From a virus, in IMG/VR virus record IMGVR_UViG_3300042516_000418, positions 1 to 28,783 of that record: a DNA stretch of 28,783 nucleotides; one strand, 5' to 3'. Under the pieces are notes generated by a model that was given only the letters and a program-made list of their open reading frames with translations, ran no database searches and was not told where the DNA came from. Positions within the stretch are counted from its first letter, which is position 1. Each line of letters begins with the position of its first letter. Below are positions 12,065 through 27,847 of the stretch, piece after piece. Both the position numbers and the translations under genes were made by a program.

Positions 12065-13815
12065 TGGCCAGTTTTTACGAAGATGCTTCGCTTGTTGTTA
12101 TACCAAGCGGCTACAAGACAAGCAAGATTTACGCAGAGAAGCCGACTGATGGGTCGGGAGATTTGACTTTTACCCGTGCTTCGGGTGCTACCCGTGTTGG
12201 GGCAAATGGCCTAATTGAGGAGGTGCGTACTAACTTGGTTTTGCAAAGCAATACGTTTAGCACTACTTGGGTTAACTCCGACTCAAATGAGACAAGTGGA
12301 CAAGCGGGCTACGATGGAACAAACAATGCGTGGCGATTAACAACAACACTTTCTGGAGGATTTATATTTCAAGGTGTTGCCATAAGCGGAATTACCACTT
12401 TTTCGATTTACGCAAAGGCGGGAACTCAAAACGGGATTATTCTTTATTCCGTACACGTGGCGCAGGGTATCAATTTTAATTTATCAACTGGAGTAGTAGG
12501 GGCTGCGTTTGTTGCTGCACCTTTAGGTTCACGAATTGAATCAATAGGGAATGGATGGTATCGTTGTAGCATTACGGTTTCTTCTTCGTCTACAAATAAT
12601 TTTCGGATTTATGTATCGGATGGTACAAATCCTTCACTTGGAAACGTTTTAATTCAAAACTCACAAGTTGAGGCAGGCGACATCGCAACAAACTACATAC
12701 CCACCACCACCGCAGCCGTATCAGTTGGGCCAGTGAGCAACGTACCCCGTCTTGACTATACAAATAGCAGTTGTCCTCGCCTGTTGCTGGAACCGCAGCG
12801 GACTAATTTGTTTACGTTCTCGGAATCTTTTGACGATTCCAGTTGGACTAAAGCTGGTTCAACTATTACGGCTAACAATGCCACCTCACCAGATGGATAT
12901 AGTAGTGCGGATAGGATTGTTGAAACCGCAACAACCGCCACGCATTTGATTTTGCGGTCTGTTGCTTTAACGGCAGCGAGCCATACATTTAGCTGCTTTA
13001 TCAAAGCGGTTTCTGGCAGCACCCGAAACGTAGGACTTTTGTTTAATACAACTGGAAAAGGTGTAATTGTAAATCCCTCAAATGGTGCCGTAGTTCTTTA
13101 TTCTGGAACTACTGCAGCGGACGTTAAAATTGAAACCTACTCAAACGGGTGGTATCGTGTGGCGGTTACCGCTACAACGGCAGCAATTACCGAAAGTTTG
13201 CGAATTTACTTGGCTAACGGAACAACTTGGACGGCTCCTTATGCTGGCGATGGAACAAGCAGCGCACTAATCTGGGGCGCACAAGTGGAAGCAGGAGCCT
13301 ACGCCACCTCTTACATTCCAACGCTGGGCGCAACTGTTACCCGTGTGGCCGATGCTGCCTCAAAGACGGGCATAAGCTCGCTTTTAAGCGCTTCGGAATA
13401 CACGCTATTTTGGGAAGGTACGCACATCCCGACTGGGCAGTTCAATAGTTTTATGACTATTTACAACGCTGCGAACAATGCTTTCAGCGCTCGTTTCTAT
13501 CGAAATAATACAAACAACGAAGTAAGAGCTACTATGTTTAACCCTTCGACAAGCTTCTCTTTAGATATGGGGTCGGGAATAACTGCTTCATACATTAAAT
13601 GCGCTTTACGTGTAAAGGCTGGAAATTACGCATTTTATGTGAATGGAAGCCTTGTCAATTCAAGCACAAACGCACTTGCGCCATCGAATATACTTGATTC
13701 TGTAAACTTACAATTCTATGGGAGTTCGCAATCTTTTGACCAAAATACCGCCCAAGCTTTGTTCTTTAAAACTGGATTAACCAACGCCCAACTGGCAGAA
13801 CTTACCACGCTATGA
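12064..13815 (+). CDS. tail fibre / receptor-binding protein with two jelly-roll-like repeats
   Basis: This 583-residue, Ser/Thr/Asn-rich protein starts with a short attachment region (S-F-Y-E-D-A-S-L-V-V-I-P-S-G-Y-K) and an F-T-R-A-S-G-A-T-R-V strand pair known from Bacteroidota phage fibres. Two related beta modules follow: each begins R-T-N-L-(V/F)-x-x-S-x-x-F, continues with F-S-(I/C)-(Y/F)-x-K-A and G-W-Y-R-(C/V), and ends I-x-x-(S/A)-Q-V-E-A-G-x-x-A-T-x-Y-I-P-T. They cover residues about 56-220 and 241-435. The last about 145 residues resemble a LamG / concanavalin-type sugar-binding fold. It most likely binds a host surface glycan. Confidence 0.75.
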   Translation: MASFYEDASLVVIPSGYKTSKIYAEKPTDGSGDLTFTRASGATRVGANGLIEEVRTNLVLQSNTFSTTWVNSDSNETSGQAGYDGTNNAWRLTTTLSGGFIFQGVAISGITTFSIYAKAGTQNGIILYSVHVAQGINFNLSTGVVGAAFVAAPLGSRIESIGNGWYRCSITVSSSSTNNFRIYVSDGTNPSLGNVLIQNSQVEAGDIATNYIPTTTAAVSVGPVSNVPRLDYTNSSCPRLLLEPQRTNLFTFSESFDDSSWTKAGSTITANNATSPDGYSSADRIVETATTATHLILRSVALTAASHTFSCFIKAVSGSTRNVGLLFNTTGKGVIVNPSNGAVVLYSGTTAADVKIETYSNGWYRVAVTATTAAITESLRIYLANGTTWTAPYAGDGTSSALIWGAQVEAGAYATSYIPTLGATVTRVADAASKTGISSLLSASEYTLFWEGTHIPTGQFNSFMTIYNAANNAFSARFYRNNTNNEVRATMFNPSTSFSLDMGSGITASYIKCALRVKAGNYAFYVNGSLVNSSTNALAPSNILDSVNLQFYGSSQSFDQNTAQALFFKTGLTNAQLAELTTL

Positions 13816-17191: not shown

Positions 17192-17208
17192 TTTTTTACA
17201 TATCTTTG
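17179..17208 (+). promoter_or_regulatory. promoter P1 with ACACAC leader
   Basis: TTTG at 17179-17182, 18-base spacer, TATCTTTG at 17201-17208, an exact TAnnTTTG. The -33 element lies within the end of the RusA-like gene. The leader contains AACACACTCAC (17220-17230) just before the ATG at 17234. It drives the small coiled-coil and SSB-like genes. Confidence 0.7.
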
Positions 17209-17233
17209 AACCATTAACCAACACACTCACTTT

Positions 17234-17395
17234 ATGGAATACACCTTCCGAACGAATTGGTCTCAAGATGGGGCCGCACAAATGGTGGAGTTTCTGCAAC
17301 ACCGCATCGAGGCACTTGCCTCACGCAACGAGTTCCTCGAAGCAGAAAACGAAGTATTAAAAAGAACCTTAATTAACGAATTGCAAAATGGCTAA
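17234..17395 (+). CDS. small coiled-coil protein (53 aa)
   Basis: This 53-residue ORF is the first after promoter P1. It is Glu/Leu/Asn-rich with a heptad-like second half (H-R-I-E-A-L-A-S-R-N-E-F-L-E-A-E-N-E-V-L). It overlaps the SSB-like gene by 8 bases. A DNA-binding partner role is possible from position alone; the function is unknown. Confidence 0.6.
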   Translation: MEYTFRTNWSQDGAAQMVEFLQHRIEALASRNEFLEAENEVLKRTLINELQNG

Positions 17396-17831
17396 AATCA
17401 CCAGCATCACCCCCACTGGACAGTGGAACGAGTTTTTCAAGTTTGAAGTACGCTTTGACGATGGAGACTTCGGAACGACTTTCGCAAAGTCCACAACTCC
17501 CCCTTACGCAGTAGGTGACGACGTTACTTACACGAAGAACGAGAAGGGAACTATCAAGATTCAAAAAGCAGGATTCCAAAACAACTACACCGCTCCGTTT
17601 GCCAAAAGCTCGGCTGGTGGTGACGACCGTGGTAAGTCCATTATCCGTCAGGTTGCTTTGAAGTCGGCTGTTGAAATGTCTGCGGCTTACGTTTCACAAG
17701 GAGCAACGATTCCAGTAGATAAGATTTTTGAGCTTGCCGATAAGTTTAACGCTTGGATGCTCAACGAGCAGAAGGGCGCAAGTCACGAGGAACACTTCGC
17801 TCCACGTGTAGAAGAAAGCAGTCCTTTTTAG
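17388..17831 (+). CDS. SSB-like single-stranded DNA-binding protein
   Basis: The 147-residue product has a beta-rich N-terminal half (residues about 3-60, with F-F-K-F-E-V-R-F-D-D-G-D-F-G) that fits an OB fold, a helical middle (I-I-R-Q-V-A-L-K-S-A-V-E-M), and an acidic-hydrophobic end E-E-S-S-P-F. The ending is like the SSB C-terminal tip (acidic residues then P-F) that recruits replication proteins. It has the strong start context of promoter P1 and is closed by its own terminator, as expected for an abundant protein. No sequence match to Ssb itself is evident, so this is a structural guess. Confidence 0.55.
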   Translation: MAKITSITPTGQWNEFFKFEVRFDDGDFGTTFAKSTTPPYAVGDDVTYTKNEKGTIKIQKAGFQNNYTAPFAKSSAGGDDRGKSIIRQVALKSAVEMSAAYVSQGATIPVDKIFELADKFNAWMLNEQKGASHEEHFAPRVEESSPF

Positions 17832-17854
17832 TGTGTGTGTTTTTTAGGACTGCT
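17817..17854 (+). ncRNA. stem-loop with (GU)5 loop at 3' end of SSB-like mRNA
   Basis: AGCAGTCCT (17817-17825) pairs perfectly with AGGACTGCT (17846-17854), nine base pairs, around a 20-base loop that holds the stop codon and GTGTGTGTGT (17831-17840) followed by T5. It abuts the terminator hairpin, giving a two-hairpin 3' end like many small RNAs. The loop is complementary to the ACACAC leaders after promoters P1, P2 and P3. Regulatory RNA function is inferred. Confidence 0.4.
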
Positions 17855-17881
17855 GGCCCCTCTTCGGAGGGGCTTTTTTTT
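17855..17881 (+). terminator. rho-independent terminator with UUCG loop
   Basis: GCCCCTC (17856-17862), TTCG (17863-17866), GAGGGGC (17867-17873), then eight T. It ends the P1 transcript immediately before promoter P2. Confidence 0.93.
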
Positions 17882-17893
17882 GCTTTGAGTTTT

Positions 17894-17919
17894 TTGTATT
17901 GATATTTTGTTTACTTTTG
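17894..17919 (+). promoter_or_regulatory. promoter P2 with ACACAC leader
   Basis: TACTTTTG (17912-17919) matches the -7 TAnnTTTG. The -33 is less clear: TTG at 17894-17896 gives a short 15-base spacer. The leader reads ccaaACACACaga before the ATG at 17934. Position right after a terminator supports it. Confidence 0.55.
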
Positions 17920-17933
17920 ACCAAACACACAGA

Positions 17934-18875
17934 ATGAGACATCCAGACATCCTAACCAACGAAGCGGTACTTCCGTTTCTAGAACGAGCAAGAGCGGGCA
18001 AGTATTTCGATACTGGCAAGCTCGGCAATCCCAAGATAGACGAGTACCTCCGTTTCAAAGACGGGGAGTTTATCGTTGTAACTGGCCACGCCAACGTGGG
18101 TAAGACGCACACGCTTATTTACCTTATGCTTATGCAGAGCCAGAACTACGAGAAGAAGTGGTTGGTCTATTCAGCAGAAAACGAGGTACACTCACTCAAA
18201 AGAAAAATGATTGAGTTTCTGGCCTGCGCTCCGATTCAGCAGATACCAGAACACGTAATGTATCGGCATCTGGACTTTGTAAACGAATACTTTACGTTTA
18301 TTGACGGCAATAAGCTATACGATGCCTTCGGCCTGTTGCGGGTTATGGAGGAAATCAAAGAGGAATGGGAATACACTGGTGCGCTTATTGACCCGTACAA
18401 CTCACTATCTACCGACCAAAAGAAACTTGGGAAGACAGGGATGCACGAATACCACTACGAGGTGGCCTCGGCTATTCGGGTTTTTGCCCACAAGAACAAC
18501 GTAACAACAATCGTAAACACACACCCAGTAACCGAAGCAATGCGTAGAACGTTTCCGCAAGGCCATCAATACGCAGGTCTACCAATGCCCCCAATGACTT
18601 CCGATATTGAAGGAGGGGGCAAATGGGGCAACCGTGCCGATTGCGTTCTTGTGGTTCACCGTATGGCCCAACACCCGACCGACTGGTTATTTACCGAGCT
18701 GCACGTGAGAAAAACAAAGGAAATGGAAACAGGCGGACGACCTACTCCGCTGGGTGACCCTATCCGTATGGAATCAATTAGAGGTAACGTTGGATTTAAG
18801 ATAGATGGCTATAACTTGCTCGACCAACAGACACCAGTACAAATTACCTTAAATGACACCGATGCACCATTCTGA
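17934..18875 (+). CDS. DnaB-like (RecA-fold) replicative helicase
   Basis: This 313-residue protein has a single RecA/DnaB-type ATPase core: Walker A G-H-A-N-V-G-K-T-H near residues 51-59, Walker B-like A-L-I-D-P-Y-N-S-L near 150, a V-N-T-H-P sensor near 200, and D-I-E-G-G-G-K-W-G-N-R-A-D near 225-240, which corresponds to the DnaB motif before the Arg finger. It lacks the N-terminal domain of full DnaB. It likely unwinds DNA at the phage fork. The frame is open to 17907, but that would begin within promoter P2, so the ATG at 17934 is the start. Confidence 0.8.
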   Translation: MRHPDILTNEAVLPFLERARAGKYFDTGKLGNPKIDEYLRFKDGEFIVVTGHANVGKTHTLIYLMLMQSQNYEKKWLVYSAENEVHSLKRKMIEFLACAPIQQIPEHVMYRHLDFVNEYFTFIDGNKLYDAFGLLRVMEEIKEEWEYTGALIDPYNSLSTDQKKLGKTGMHEYHYEVASAIRVFAHKNNVTTIVNTHPVTEAMRRTFPQGHQYAGLPMPPMTSDIEGGGKWGNRADCVLVVHRMAQHPTDWLFTELHVRKTKEMETGGRPTPLGDPIRMESIRGNVGFKIDGYNLLDQQTPVQITLNDTDAPF

Positions 18876-19777: not shown

Positions 19778-19922
19778 TATCGGATTTTACCCTATTTACG
19801 GAGTTTTACTTGGATTCAACTGGTCGAAAGTAGAACTTGACGACATCGAAGTTCAACAGATACAGATACCCTTACTTATCTTTATCCTCGAAATCGAATG
19901 GGAGAACTACTTGAACGATTAG
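19767..19922 (+). CDS. small acidic protein (51 aa)
   Basis: The 51-residue ORF overlaps the DnaA-like gene by 11 bases and the sigma-factor gene by 25 bases. It starts M-N-F-N-I-G-F-Y-P-I-Y-G-V-L-L-G-F and is acidic later (V-E-L-D-D-I-E-V). It bridges a 120-base interval that would otherwise be empty; the L-G-F-x-W-x-K opening is familiar from small phage proteins. No function known. Confidence 0.5.
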   Translation: MNFNIGFYPIYGVLLGFNWSKVELDDIEVQQIQIPLLIFILEIEWENYLND

Positions 19923-20425
19923 CAGAACGCCACTCCGACTGGATTCGGATGGCTAAAAGTTTTGGTGCGGACTACGATACCGCCCAAGACCTCGTTCAAG
20001 ATATGTACATAAGATTGTACACGTATGTAAAGGACTTTGAGAAGATTCGCTATGGCGAAGAACCCAACACGTTCTTTGTTTATATTACATTACGGAACCT
20101 TTACTTGCGCCAGCAGCAACAGGCGGCTAAATTCGTATCTATTGAAGAGTTCGACGATATAGACGAAATGCACGACCTCGATTCTGACTTGGCCTTTACG
20201 GAACTTGCCGAAGCAGTAAAGGGCGAAATTTCTAGATGGGATTGGTACGATAACAAGCTATTCACCCTGTACCACGATTCAAACGTTTCAATGCGTAAGT
20301 TATCTAACGACACCAAAATAAGTTTGCGTTCAATTTATCACACTTTGAAAAATGGCAGAGAACGAATTAAAAGCAACTGCGAAGCCGAGTACCAAACGTG
20401 GTCGAAAGCCAAAAGGTCTCGGTGA
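19898..20425 (+). CDS. sigma-70 family (ECF-like) RNA polymerase sigma factor
   Basis: The 175-residue protein has the two-domain plan of an ECF sigma factor. Region 2 spans about 10-75 (A-Q-D-L-V-Q-D-M-Y-I-R-L-Y at 29-41, then F-F-V-Y-I-T-L-R-N-L), and an acidic linker follows (about 81-100). Region 4 spans about 115-160, with a helix-turn-helix M-R-K-L-S-N-D-T-K-I-S-L-R-S-I-Y and R-E-R-I-K. It would direct host RNA polymerase to phage promoters, most likely those of the late genes. It overlaps its upstream neighbour by 25 bases and the following gene by 74 bases. Confidence 0.8.
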   Translation: MGELLERLAERHSDWIRMAKSFGADYDTAQDLVQDMYIRLYTYVKDFEKIRYGEEPNTFFVYITLRNLYLRQQQQAAKFVSIEEFDDIDEMHDLDSDLAFTELAEAVKGEISRWDWYDNKLFTLYHDSNVSMRKLSNDTKISLRSIYHTLKNGRERIKSNCEAEYQTWSKAKRSR

Positions 20426-21370: not shown

Positions 21371-21399
21371 TTGTATGTATTAAAAATTTTATATCTTTG
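21371..21399 (+). promoter_or_regulatory. promoter P3 with ACACACAC leader
   Basis: TTG at 21371-21373, 18-base spacer, TATCTTTG at 21392-21399, an exact -7. The leader carries AAACACACACAC just before the ATG at 21422. No terminator is seen downstream before the window ends, so it may drive a transcript reaching the terminase genes. Confidence 0.7.
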
Positions 21400-21421
21400 G
21401 TGAACATTAAACACACACACA

Positions 21422-21550
21422 ATGAAAAACAAACTGATTGACCTATTCCAAGACGTGACCGTTTGGCTCGCTTGGTACTTGATTGTAAGCACAGCGTTGC
21501 TTGCTATTTTTATTGTTCCATCCTACATCGCACAAGTGCTATGCAAGTAA
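21422..21550 (+). CDS. small membrane protein (42 aa)
   Basis: This 42-residue ORF directly follows promoter P3 with the ACACAC leader. After a short polar start (M-K-N-K-L-I-D-L-F-Q-D-V) there is one hydrophobic helix (about 13-36: V-T-V-W-L-A-W-Y-L-I-V-S-T-A-L-L-A-I-F-I). It overlaps the next gene by 10 bases. First place in an early operon suggests a host-takeover or exclusion role, but only the membrane span is visible. Confidence 0.6.
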   Translation: MKNKLIDLFQDVTVWLAWYLIVSTALLAIFIVPSYIAQVLCK

Positions 21551-26298: not shown

Positions 26299-26807
26299 TA
26301 CCAATTACCCAAGTGGTTCCCAATACGAGCAACCCACGAATTATCAAAGACGATAAATTCAAAAAGCTCGTAAAGTCAATCAAGGAGTTCCCTGAGATGC
26401 TAAACCTGCGTCCTATTGTCGTTGACAAGGATATGGTAGTACTCGGTGGGAATATGCGCTTGAAGGCGTGCAAAGCCGCTGGGCTTACCGAGGTGCCGAT
26501 TATTGTTGCCGACCAACTAACGCCAGAGCAACAGGCGGAGTTCATCATTAAGGACAACGTTGGCTTCGGTGAATGGGACTGGGACATCTTGGCGAATGAA
26601 TGGGATGCTGAGTTATTGCAGGACTGGGGCCTTGAATTGCCATTTGACAATACGCCTGTCTTAGAAGCGGAAGATGAAACTGATTTATCCGATAAAATAA
26701 AATCAGCATTCAGAATAGAAATAGAACTTGAGAACGAAGAAGAGCAAGAGAAGATGTATAATCAGTTAATAACAGACGGGTACAAATGCCGAGTTTTGAC
26801 ATTGTAA
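26289..26807 (+). CDS. ParB-N domain protein (no fused methyltransferase)
   Basis: This 172-residue protein has a ParB/sulfiredoxin-like domain in residues 1-75 with V-V-L-G-G-N-M-R-L-K-A-C (50-61), the nucleotide-binding motif. E-F-I-I-K-D-N-V-G-F-G-E-W-D (84-97) follows, the region usually joining this domain to a DNA methyltransferase. Instead it ends in a short tail with E-E-E-Q-E-K-M-Y-N-Q-L-I. In phages such ParB-N units work with DNA-modifying enzymes; here the neighbours are glycosyltransferases and an ABC-GNAT protein. It overlaps them by 10 and 22 bases. Confidence 0.85.
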   Translation: MQIVPITQVVPNTSNPRIIKDDKFKKLVKSIKEFPEMLNLRPIVVDKDMVVLGGNMRLKACKAAGLTEVPIIVADQLTPEQQAEFIIKDNVGFGEWDWDILANEWDAELLQDWGLELPFDNTPVLEAEDETDLSDKIKSAFRIEIELENEEEQEKMYNQLITDGYKCRVLTL

Positions 26808-27847
26808 GGGAGTCCAAGCCCTCTAAATCTTTCCGTGTTGCTTCTGTAATGGGAAAATTTGACCTTGATTCTAATCACATTAGAGAGCACTTTGTTGGTA
26901 ATATAGACATACCAAAAGAATGGAGTGTTGGTTTAATTGTTGGTTCTTCTGGAACGGGAAAAACAACAATCGCAAGAGAATTATTTGAAAACGCTTACAT
27001 TACTGATTTTCAGTACAATGCAGAATGTATATTGGACGATATGCCAAAATCAAAGAGCGTTGACGAAATAACATCTGTATTTAATTCAGTTGGATTCTCA
27101 TCACCACCATCTTGGCTTAAACCATATTCGGCATTAAGCAATGGTCAAAAGATGCGAGTTGACCTTGCGAATGCATTGTTACAGGATAAAGAGTTAATTG
27201 TTTTTGATGAGTTCACGTCTGTTGTAGACCGGAATGTAGCGCAGATTGGTTCTAATGCAGTCCAGAAGGCGGTTCGCAAATCTGGAAAACAGTTTATTGC
27301 TGTAACTTGTCATTTTGACGTTGAAGATTGGTTGTTGCCAGATTGGGTGTTTGATACTGATTCTATGACCTTTCGTTCTTACGAAGGGCAAAAAAAAAAT
27401 AGACCATCAATTAACTTTGAGATATTCCAAGCAGAAGATAAGTCAATCTGGAAGGTCTTTGCTAAACATCACTATTTGAGTCACAATCACCACAATGCAG
27501 CTCACGTCTTCGTAGGTTATGTTAATGGCCACTTAGCAGCATTCTTGAGCGTTCTTCATTTTCCGCATCCAAAAGTAAAGAATATGAAAAAAGTACATAG
27601 ATTGGTTGTCTTACCCGATTATCAAGGTATAGGTATTGGAATGAAGATGCTTGAAAGTATTGGCGAGATTTACAAAAAGCAAAAAGATAGATATTCAATA
27701 GTCACATCTTCTCCCTCTTTAATTCACGCTTTGAAGAAATCTTCTAAATGGAGATGCTTGAGATTTGGCAGAACAAAAGAATCCACAGGAATATTAAAAG
27801 ACAAAACATCCAAAGAACGTATAACAACATCATTTGAAATTAGATGA
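26786..27847 (+). CDS. ABC ATPase-GNAT acetyltransferase fusion (COG2401-like)
   Basis: The 353-residue protein has an ABC-type ATPase (about 20-200): Walker A G-S-S-G-T-G-K-T-T (53-61), signature L-S-N-G-Q (117-121), Walker B L-I-V-F-D-E (137-142) and His176 as H-loop. A short Lys-rich linker (201-206) is encoded by a run of ten A (27390-27399). Then comes a GNAT acetyltransferase (about 206-353) with a K-H-H-Y-L start and acetyl-CoA motif V-V-L-P-D-Y-Q-G-I-G-I-G (274-285). The arrangement matches COG2401; the GNAT half recalls Mu Mom, which modifies adenine in DNA. The gene is visibly more AT-rich than its neighbours, suggesting recent transfer. DNA modification is an inference. Confidence 0.85.
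   Translation: MPSFDIVRESKPSKSFRVASVMGKFDLDSNHIREHFVGNIDIPKEWSVGLIVGSSGTGKTTIARELFENAYITDFQYNAECILDDMPKSKSVDEITSVFNSVGFSSPPSWLKPYSALSNGQKMRVDLANALLQDKELIVFDEFTSVVDRNVAQIGSNAVQKAVRKSGKQFIAVTCHFDVEDWLLPDWVFDTDSMTFRSYEGQKKNRPSINFEIFQAEDKSIWKVFAKHHYLSHNHHNAAHVFVGYVNGHLAAFLSVLHFPHPKVKNMKKVHRLVVLPDYQGIGIGMKMLESIGEIYKKQKDRYSIVTSSPSLIHALKKSSKWRCLRFGRTKESTGILKDKTSKERITTSFEIR

Follow-up and report, generated by a model that had tools for sequence, protein, structure and literature searches.

Does the 3′ end of a phage ssb-like gene serve only to end its transcript, or could the hairpin loop found there also address the leaders of other early genes? The DNA analysed here (hereafter the window) is a whole virus record of 28,783 bases, which carries terminase, portal, DnaB-like helicase, RusA-like, exonuclease VIII-like and endolysin genes. 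Its promoters are of the Bacteroidota type, with the box TANNTTTG, and we assign the phage to an uncultivated group of this type. Bacteroides has promoters of the form TAnnTTTG and is without Shine–Dalgarno sequences and without obvious Hfq or ProQ; in Bacteroidota, ribosomes initiate on short, A-rich leaders and do not rely on Shine–Dalgarno pairing (PMC7366714). Two further genes of the window deserve mention: 19898–20425 encodes a sigma-70 region 2-like protein (a borderline Pfam match), which could set the promoter class of the phage, and 26786–27847 encodes a single protein with an ABC/AAA-type ATPase part and a GNAT acetyltransferase part.

The 3′ end of the SSB-like gene and three leaders in the window

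The SSB-like reading of the 147-aa protein is based on its PF tip, a low-confidence structure model with an N-terminal beta barrel, and its position. A fold search gave weak OB-fold-type matches, including POT1, all with E > 0.001; there was no Pfam match, and a PDB sequence search returned nothing significant. The coding sequence runs into the hairpin: the last three codons before Phe encode the 5′ arm, and the Phe and stop codons open the loop.

The first-pass annotation had described a perfect 9-bp stem with the SSB-like stop codon and GTGTGTGTGT in its loop, adjoining a strong terminator, and both the sequence and the RNA fold bear this out. The order is AGCAGTCCT–TTTTAGTGTGTGTGTTTTTT–AGGACTGCT from 17817 to 17854, followed by GGCCCCTC–TTCG–GAGGGGCT and a U8 run to 17881 (Table 1). 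Within the loop, the stop codon TAG occupies 17829–17831 and (GT)5 occupies 17831–17840. Folding of 17800–17885 gave −34.4 kcal/mol (z = −4.9), with 0 of 200 shuffles as good, and the adjoining terminator ranked highest in the terminator scan. This places the element where 3′-UTR-derived sRNAs are found, at the 3′ end of an mRNA that closes with a Rho-independent terminator. An Rfam scan of the window gave 0 matches above the gathering score and hence no described RNA family.

Table 1. Features of the ssb 3′ end and of the leaders P1, P2 and P3 in the window
Feature	Description	Position	Strand	Evidence
P1	−7 box TATCTTTG (17201–17208), leader motif AACACAC (17220–17226)	17201–17226	+	
SSB-like gene	147 aa, C-terminal ...EESSPF	17388–17831	+	PF tip, beta-barrel model, position (SSB-like reading)
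Hairpin 5′ arm	AGCAGTCCT	17817–17825	+	Sequence, RNA fold
Apical loop	UUUUAGUGUGUGUGUUUUUU, 20 nt, proposed antisense seed	17826–17845	+	Sequence, RNA fold, duplex tests
Hairpin 3′ arm	AGGACTGCT	17846–17854	+	Sequence, RNA fold
Intrinsic terminator	GGCCCCTC–TTCG–GAGGGGCT and T run	17855–17881	+	Terminator scan, RNA fold
P2	−7 box TACTTTTG, leader motif AAACACACA (17923–17931)	17912–17931	+	
P3	−7 box TATCTTTG, leader motif AAACACACACACA (21409–21421)	21392–21421	+	

AC-type motifs had also been proposed just before the start codons that follow P1, P2 and P3, and all three are present, each downstream of a TANNTTTG box. After P1, a 53-aa coiled-coil-like ORF has its ATG at 17234, with 7 nt between motif and start codon; after P2, the DnaB-like helicase gene has its ATG at 17934, 2 nt past the motif; and after P3, a 42-aa membrane-protein-like ORF has its ATG at 21422, with 0 nt in between. 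Their complementarity to the loop, put at 7–12 bases on first reading, amounts to 7 nt for P1, 9 nt for P2 and 12–13 nt for P3, and P1 is weak in the window as it pairs over only 7 nt. Since ACACAC is not enriched here (14 sites versus 14.4 expected), an AC/GT match in the window alone could be chance, and the case rests on relatives.

Matched loops and leaders in related phages

About 150 IMG/VR contigs, all of them metagenomic, have the same architecture and among them three loop sequences: GTGTGTGTGT in clade A, to which the window belongs, TTCTGATTGGTT in clades B and C, and GTTTTAGGTGTTTC in clade D. The leaders P1–P3, chosen in clade A on first reading, were transferred to the other clades via gene homology and position. 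The homologous leaders match the loop of their own clade in every case, with the complementary sequence ACACAC in A, AACCAATCAGAA in B/C and AACACCTAAAAC in D, and every clade has the ssb stop codon within its loop.

Clade A (L001–L021 and L023) has SSB-like proteins that are 89–100% identical. Wherever the 3′ end is present, stem and loop are unchanged save in L007, whose loop is one T shorter and whose last stem position is changed, and in L023, where the last stem position is changed. The P2 leader is kept even before a different gene; the motif shows no variation within this clade, and its complexity is low. Clades B and C are more distant, with an SSB-like protein ∼55–64% and a helicase ∼70% identical to those of the window. 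Their loop includes the stop codon UGA, and the helicase leader is its exact reverse complement. In whole B/C records the motif stands directly before about five to nine starts, among them those of the small coiled-coil ORF before ssb, ssb itself, the helicase, the P3-type small membrane ORF and an exonuclease-like gene. In clade D, where the SSB-like protein is ∼70% and the helicase 76–77% identical, AACACCTAAAAC occurs in the homologous P1 and P3 leaders, and one record has it before a further gene as a third leader. At the helicase start the sequence is ATGAAACA(C/T)CC, which matches a different part of the loop.

Several of these loci show local rearrangements. Some clade B P3 regions contain extra copies of ACCAATCA (G012 at 13594–13619, G006 and G007), two of them in tandem before one ORF in G012. 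Four different GIY-YIG-like genes, assigned by eye from their translations, separate the P2 leader from the helicase gene in records of clades A and D (L010:3549, L015:3550, L018:1606 and L236:622); the clade motif precedes the endonuclease in all four and recurs before the helicase in three. Part of clade D (L229 and L306) has, just before the helicase promoter, a tRNA-like sequence with an apparent insert between the ssb hairpin and the terminator.

A lack of conserved loop–leader complementarity in relatives had been named beforehand as a refuting result, and covariation as a check; the complementarity proved to be kept through two complete sequence changes. Two independent switches are all that is needed to explain the three loop types, and in none of the clades seen had the leader motif changed without the loop, or the loop without the leader motif. 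Beyond clade A, an exact DNA scan for CCNTTYTARTGTGTGTGT found chance matches only. Searches of cultured phages returned none by the SSB-like protein and, by the helicase, only distant Cellulophaga, Maribacter and Bradyrhizobium phages; the bacterial genome contigs searched held no useful relative.

Tests of loop–leader pairing and the readings they allow

Predicted duplex energies separate own from foreign loops. With their own loop, the leaders of clades A, B, C and D reach means of −15.5, −15.2, −15.7 and −16.7 kcal/mol, compared with −5.0 to −10.6 for foreign loops. The cross-clade matrix is diagonal except for the loop common to B and C, with perfect runs of 7–13 nt. The observed mean was reached by 5 of 2000 shuffled loops in clade A and by 0 of 2000 in each of B, C and D. 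Ranking was also done within genomes, by sampling all plus-strand 20-mers every 2 nt in one record per clade, and in 4/4 clades no site in the whole record paired better with the homologous leaders than the loop, which stood clear of unrelated sites. In the window it was the best of 14,383 plus-strand 20-mers for the three leaders jointly (mean −14.9 versus −12.2 kcal/mol for the next unrelated site), and in the clade B record G012 it ranked first of 22,916 16-mers for matching starts, with 8 leaders. An unsupervised k-mer count upstream of starts placed the loop complement among the top words in A, B and C but not in D, and single-genome match counts with short words were not significant for A and D.

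Sequence variation agrees with pairing at the level of single bases. Across 31 different P2 leaders of B/C, the 10-nt core ACCAATYAGA is invariant apart from C→U, which keeps a G·U pair. In the stem alignments 100% and 93% of cells are paired, with one two-sided change each in B and C, so that stem covariation on its own lends the stem modest support. Taken with the coordinated change of loop and leaders between clades, these results make it very likely that RNA–RNA pairing of the ssb 3′ end with early leaders has been selected.

What would such pairing do? Repression or timing of replication-module translation appears most likely, and we think it probable that the ssb 3′ end serves as an antisense hub that represses or times the initiation of several early phage genes in trans. 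The hairpin would present a 9–13-nt seed in its open apical loop, with the terminator setting the 3′ end, and the seed would pair with the motif that several early genes have at their start codon or no more than ∼10 nt from it. Predicted targets are the small coiled-coil ORF, the helicase and the small membrane ORF, and in B/C also ssb itself and the exonuclease gene. As Bacteroidota ribosomes use short A-rich leaders and not Shine–Dalgarno pairing, a duplex at the start region should block or delay initiation, and the replication module would repress itself once ssb mRNA accumulates. Gene order suggests that P1 transcripts run through ssb; P1 would then drive ssb in the window, giving negative feedback on its own transcript. 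The match to that transcript is 7 nt at P1 in clade A, 9–12 nt at the P1/ssb starts in B/C and 12 nt in D. The element would presumably be expressed and act by repression rather than activation, and the leaders on separate transcripts argue for action in trans.

The hub may also be gated by translation. The ssb stop codon lies within the seed loop in every clade, which suggests that terminating ribosomes compete with pairing. A ribosome completing ssb would unfold the hairpin and cover the seed, such that the RNA reports ssb translation and sets target initiation at the helicase and the small ORFs, and in B/C at the exonuclease and ssb itself, with private, clade-specific seed/leader codes. 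We regard this extended version as a tentative possibility.

Somewhat unlikely, in our judgement, is that the pairing is real but reversed or mainly in cis, i.e. that the P1, P2 and P3 leaders bind the ssb 3′ end and thereby affect the stability of ssb mRNA or the termination of its translation, or that the loop pairs with its own P1 5′ leader. The same complementarity data fit this reading, the stop codon in the loop and the place of P1 ahead of ssb are in keeping with it, and the 5′–3′ UTR interaction of icaR is a precedent (PMC3868564). However, the P3 and exonuclease leaders, which are distant from ssb and belong to other transcripts, have the motif as well, and its position at a start codon in every case fits initiation control of the targets.

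A DNA function for the motif is improbable. It could be the initial transcribed region of a phage promoter class, or an operator, and the loop an opposite-strand copy for the same protein, with no RNA pairing involved. The short distance behind the −7 boxes at P1–P3 and the presence of a sigma-70 region 2-like protein would agree with this, yet in B/C the motif also precedes promoterless, operon-internal starts close to the ATG, the copy in the loop is single-stranded throughout while the stem around it remains paired, and the P2 variation from C to U retains the G·U pair. We consider it very improbable that the motif is a phage translation enhancer for A-rich leaders without Shine–Dalgarno sequences, its likeness to the loop being a coincidence or a by-product of inverted-repeat homogenisation. 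A-rich motifs adjoining the ATG are indeed expected of Bacteroidota leaders, and the lack of AC-repeat enrichment in the window is compatible with it; two concerted changes of the loop and several distant leaders, the top rank of the loop as whole-record partner in each of the four records tested (one per clade) and the fact that no clade was seen in which only one side has changed all argue against it. Finally, a plain double hairpin for transcription termination and mRNA 3′-end protection only, as the strong terminator that follows might suggest, is scarcely credible, as it leaves unexplained an invariant loop that is matched by leaders and changes with them.

Relation to known regulatory RNAs and the candidate active molecule

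The antisense hub proposed here would work like the 3′-UTR-derived sRNAs CpxQ, OppZ and CarZ, whose conserved seed, in the final part of an mRNA beside its intrinsic terminator, is complementary to translation starts, with OppZ also giving feedback on its own operon (PMC9438474). The phage element likewise has, beside a terminator at an mRNA 3′ end, a conserved seed complementary to translation-initiation regions. It differs in being phage-encoded, in having its seed in a hairpin loop that holds a stop codon, in having several phage leaders as a matched set and in the hosts of its type, which are without obvious Hfq/ProQ; we treat it as a candidate for that class and do not claim membership. 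In Staphylococcus aureus icaR, initiation is blocked by a short 3′UTR motif that pairs with the ribosome-binding region of its own mRNA, and the paired RNA is cut by RNase III (PMC3868564). In the phage, too, a 3′ motif is complementary to the start region of what is presumably its own transcript, but icaR acts on a single gene in cis, whereas the phage motif has several leaders, most of them on other transcripts and without Shine–Dalgarno sequences.

Phage RNAs such as lambda OOP, P22 sar, lambda PreS and VP882 VpdS base-pair with mRNA and adjust the phage cycle; the reviewed cases comprise antisense RNAs to single phage genes, including OOP and sar, and trans RNAs with host or phage targets, including the Hfq-dependent PreS, which targets host dnaN (PMC12197685). 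In contrast to the opposite-strand, cis-antisense arrangement of OOP and sar, the loop and leaders studied here are in separate places on the same strand. Also unlike OOP, sar and PreS, the element has several of the phage's own early leaders as its proposed targets and the ssb 3′ end as its source. The P4 CI RNA and the P1/P7 c4 RNA are small phage RNAs that pair with short complementary leader sites of the same phage. These are immunity RNAs processed from the leader of the operon that they control, whereas the present element is at the 3′ end of a replication gene. The literature searched contained no phage RNA from the 3′ end of a replication gene with a multi-leader set, and no 3′-end RNA regulon of a Bacteroidota phage, which does not prove absence.

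If the proposal is correct, several early mRNAs would be controlled together by an RNA regulon of the phage's own, with the 3′ end of a replication gene as its source, in bacteria that have neither Shine–Dalgarno initiation nor obvious Hfq/ProQ. Because the clade-specific matching of loop and leaders amounts to natural compensatory evidence, its targets can be read from the sequence. This suggests a search route for such circuits in uncultivated phages, in which terminator-proximal loops are compared with start-codon leaders and joint change is sought.

The active molecule would be either the whole mRNA or a processed RNA of ∼65 nt. An internal promoter scan found no TANNTTTG box inside the ssb gene of the window upstream of the hairpin, which points to the mRNA 3′ end or a processed product as the actor, and a separate short RNA would need processing. 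Among 3′-UTR-derived sRNAs, only the independently transcribed type depends on a promoter within the upstream gene; the processed type, released by RNases, does without one. Among the 320 loci scanned, 40 have a TANNTTTG box ≤380 nt upstream of the hairpin.
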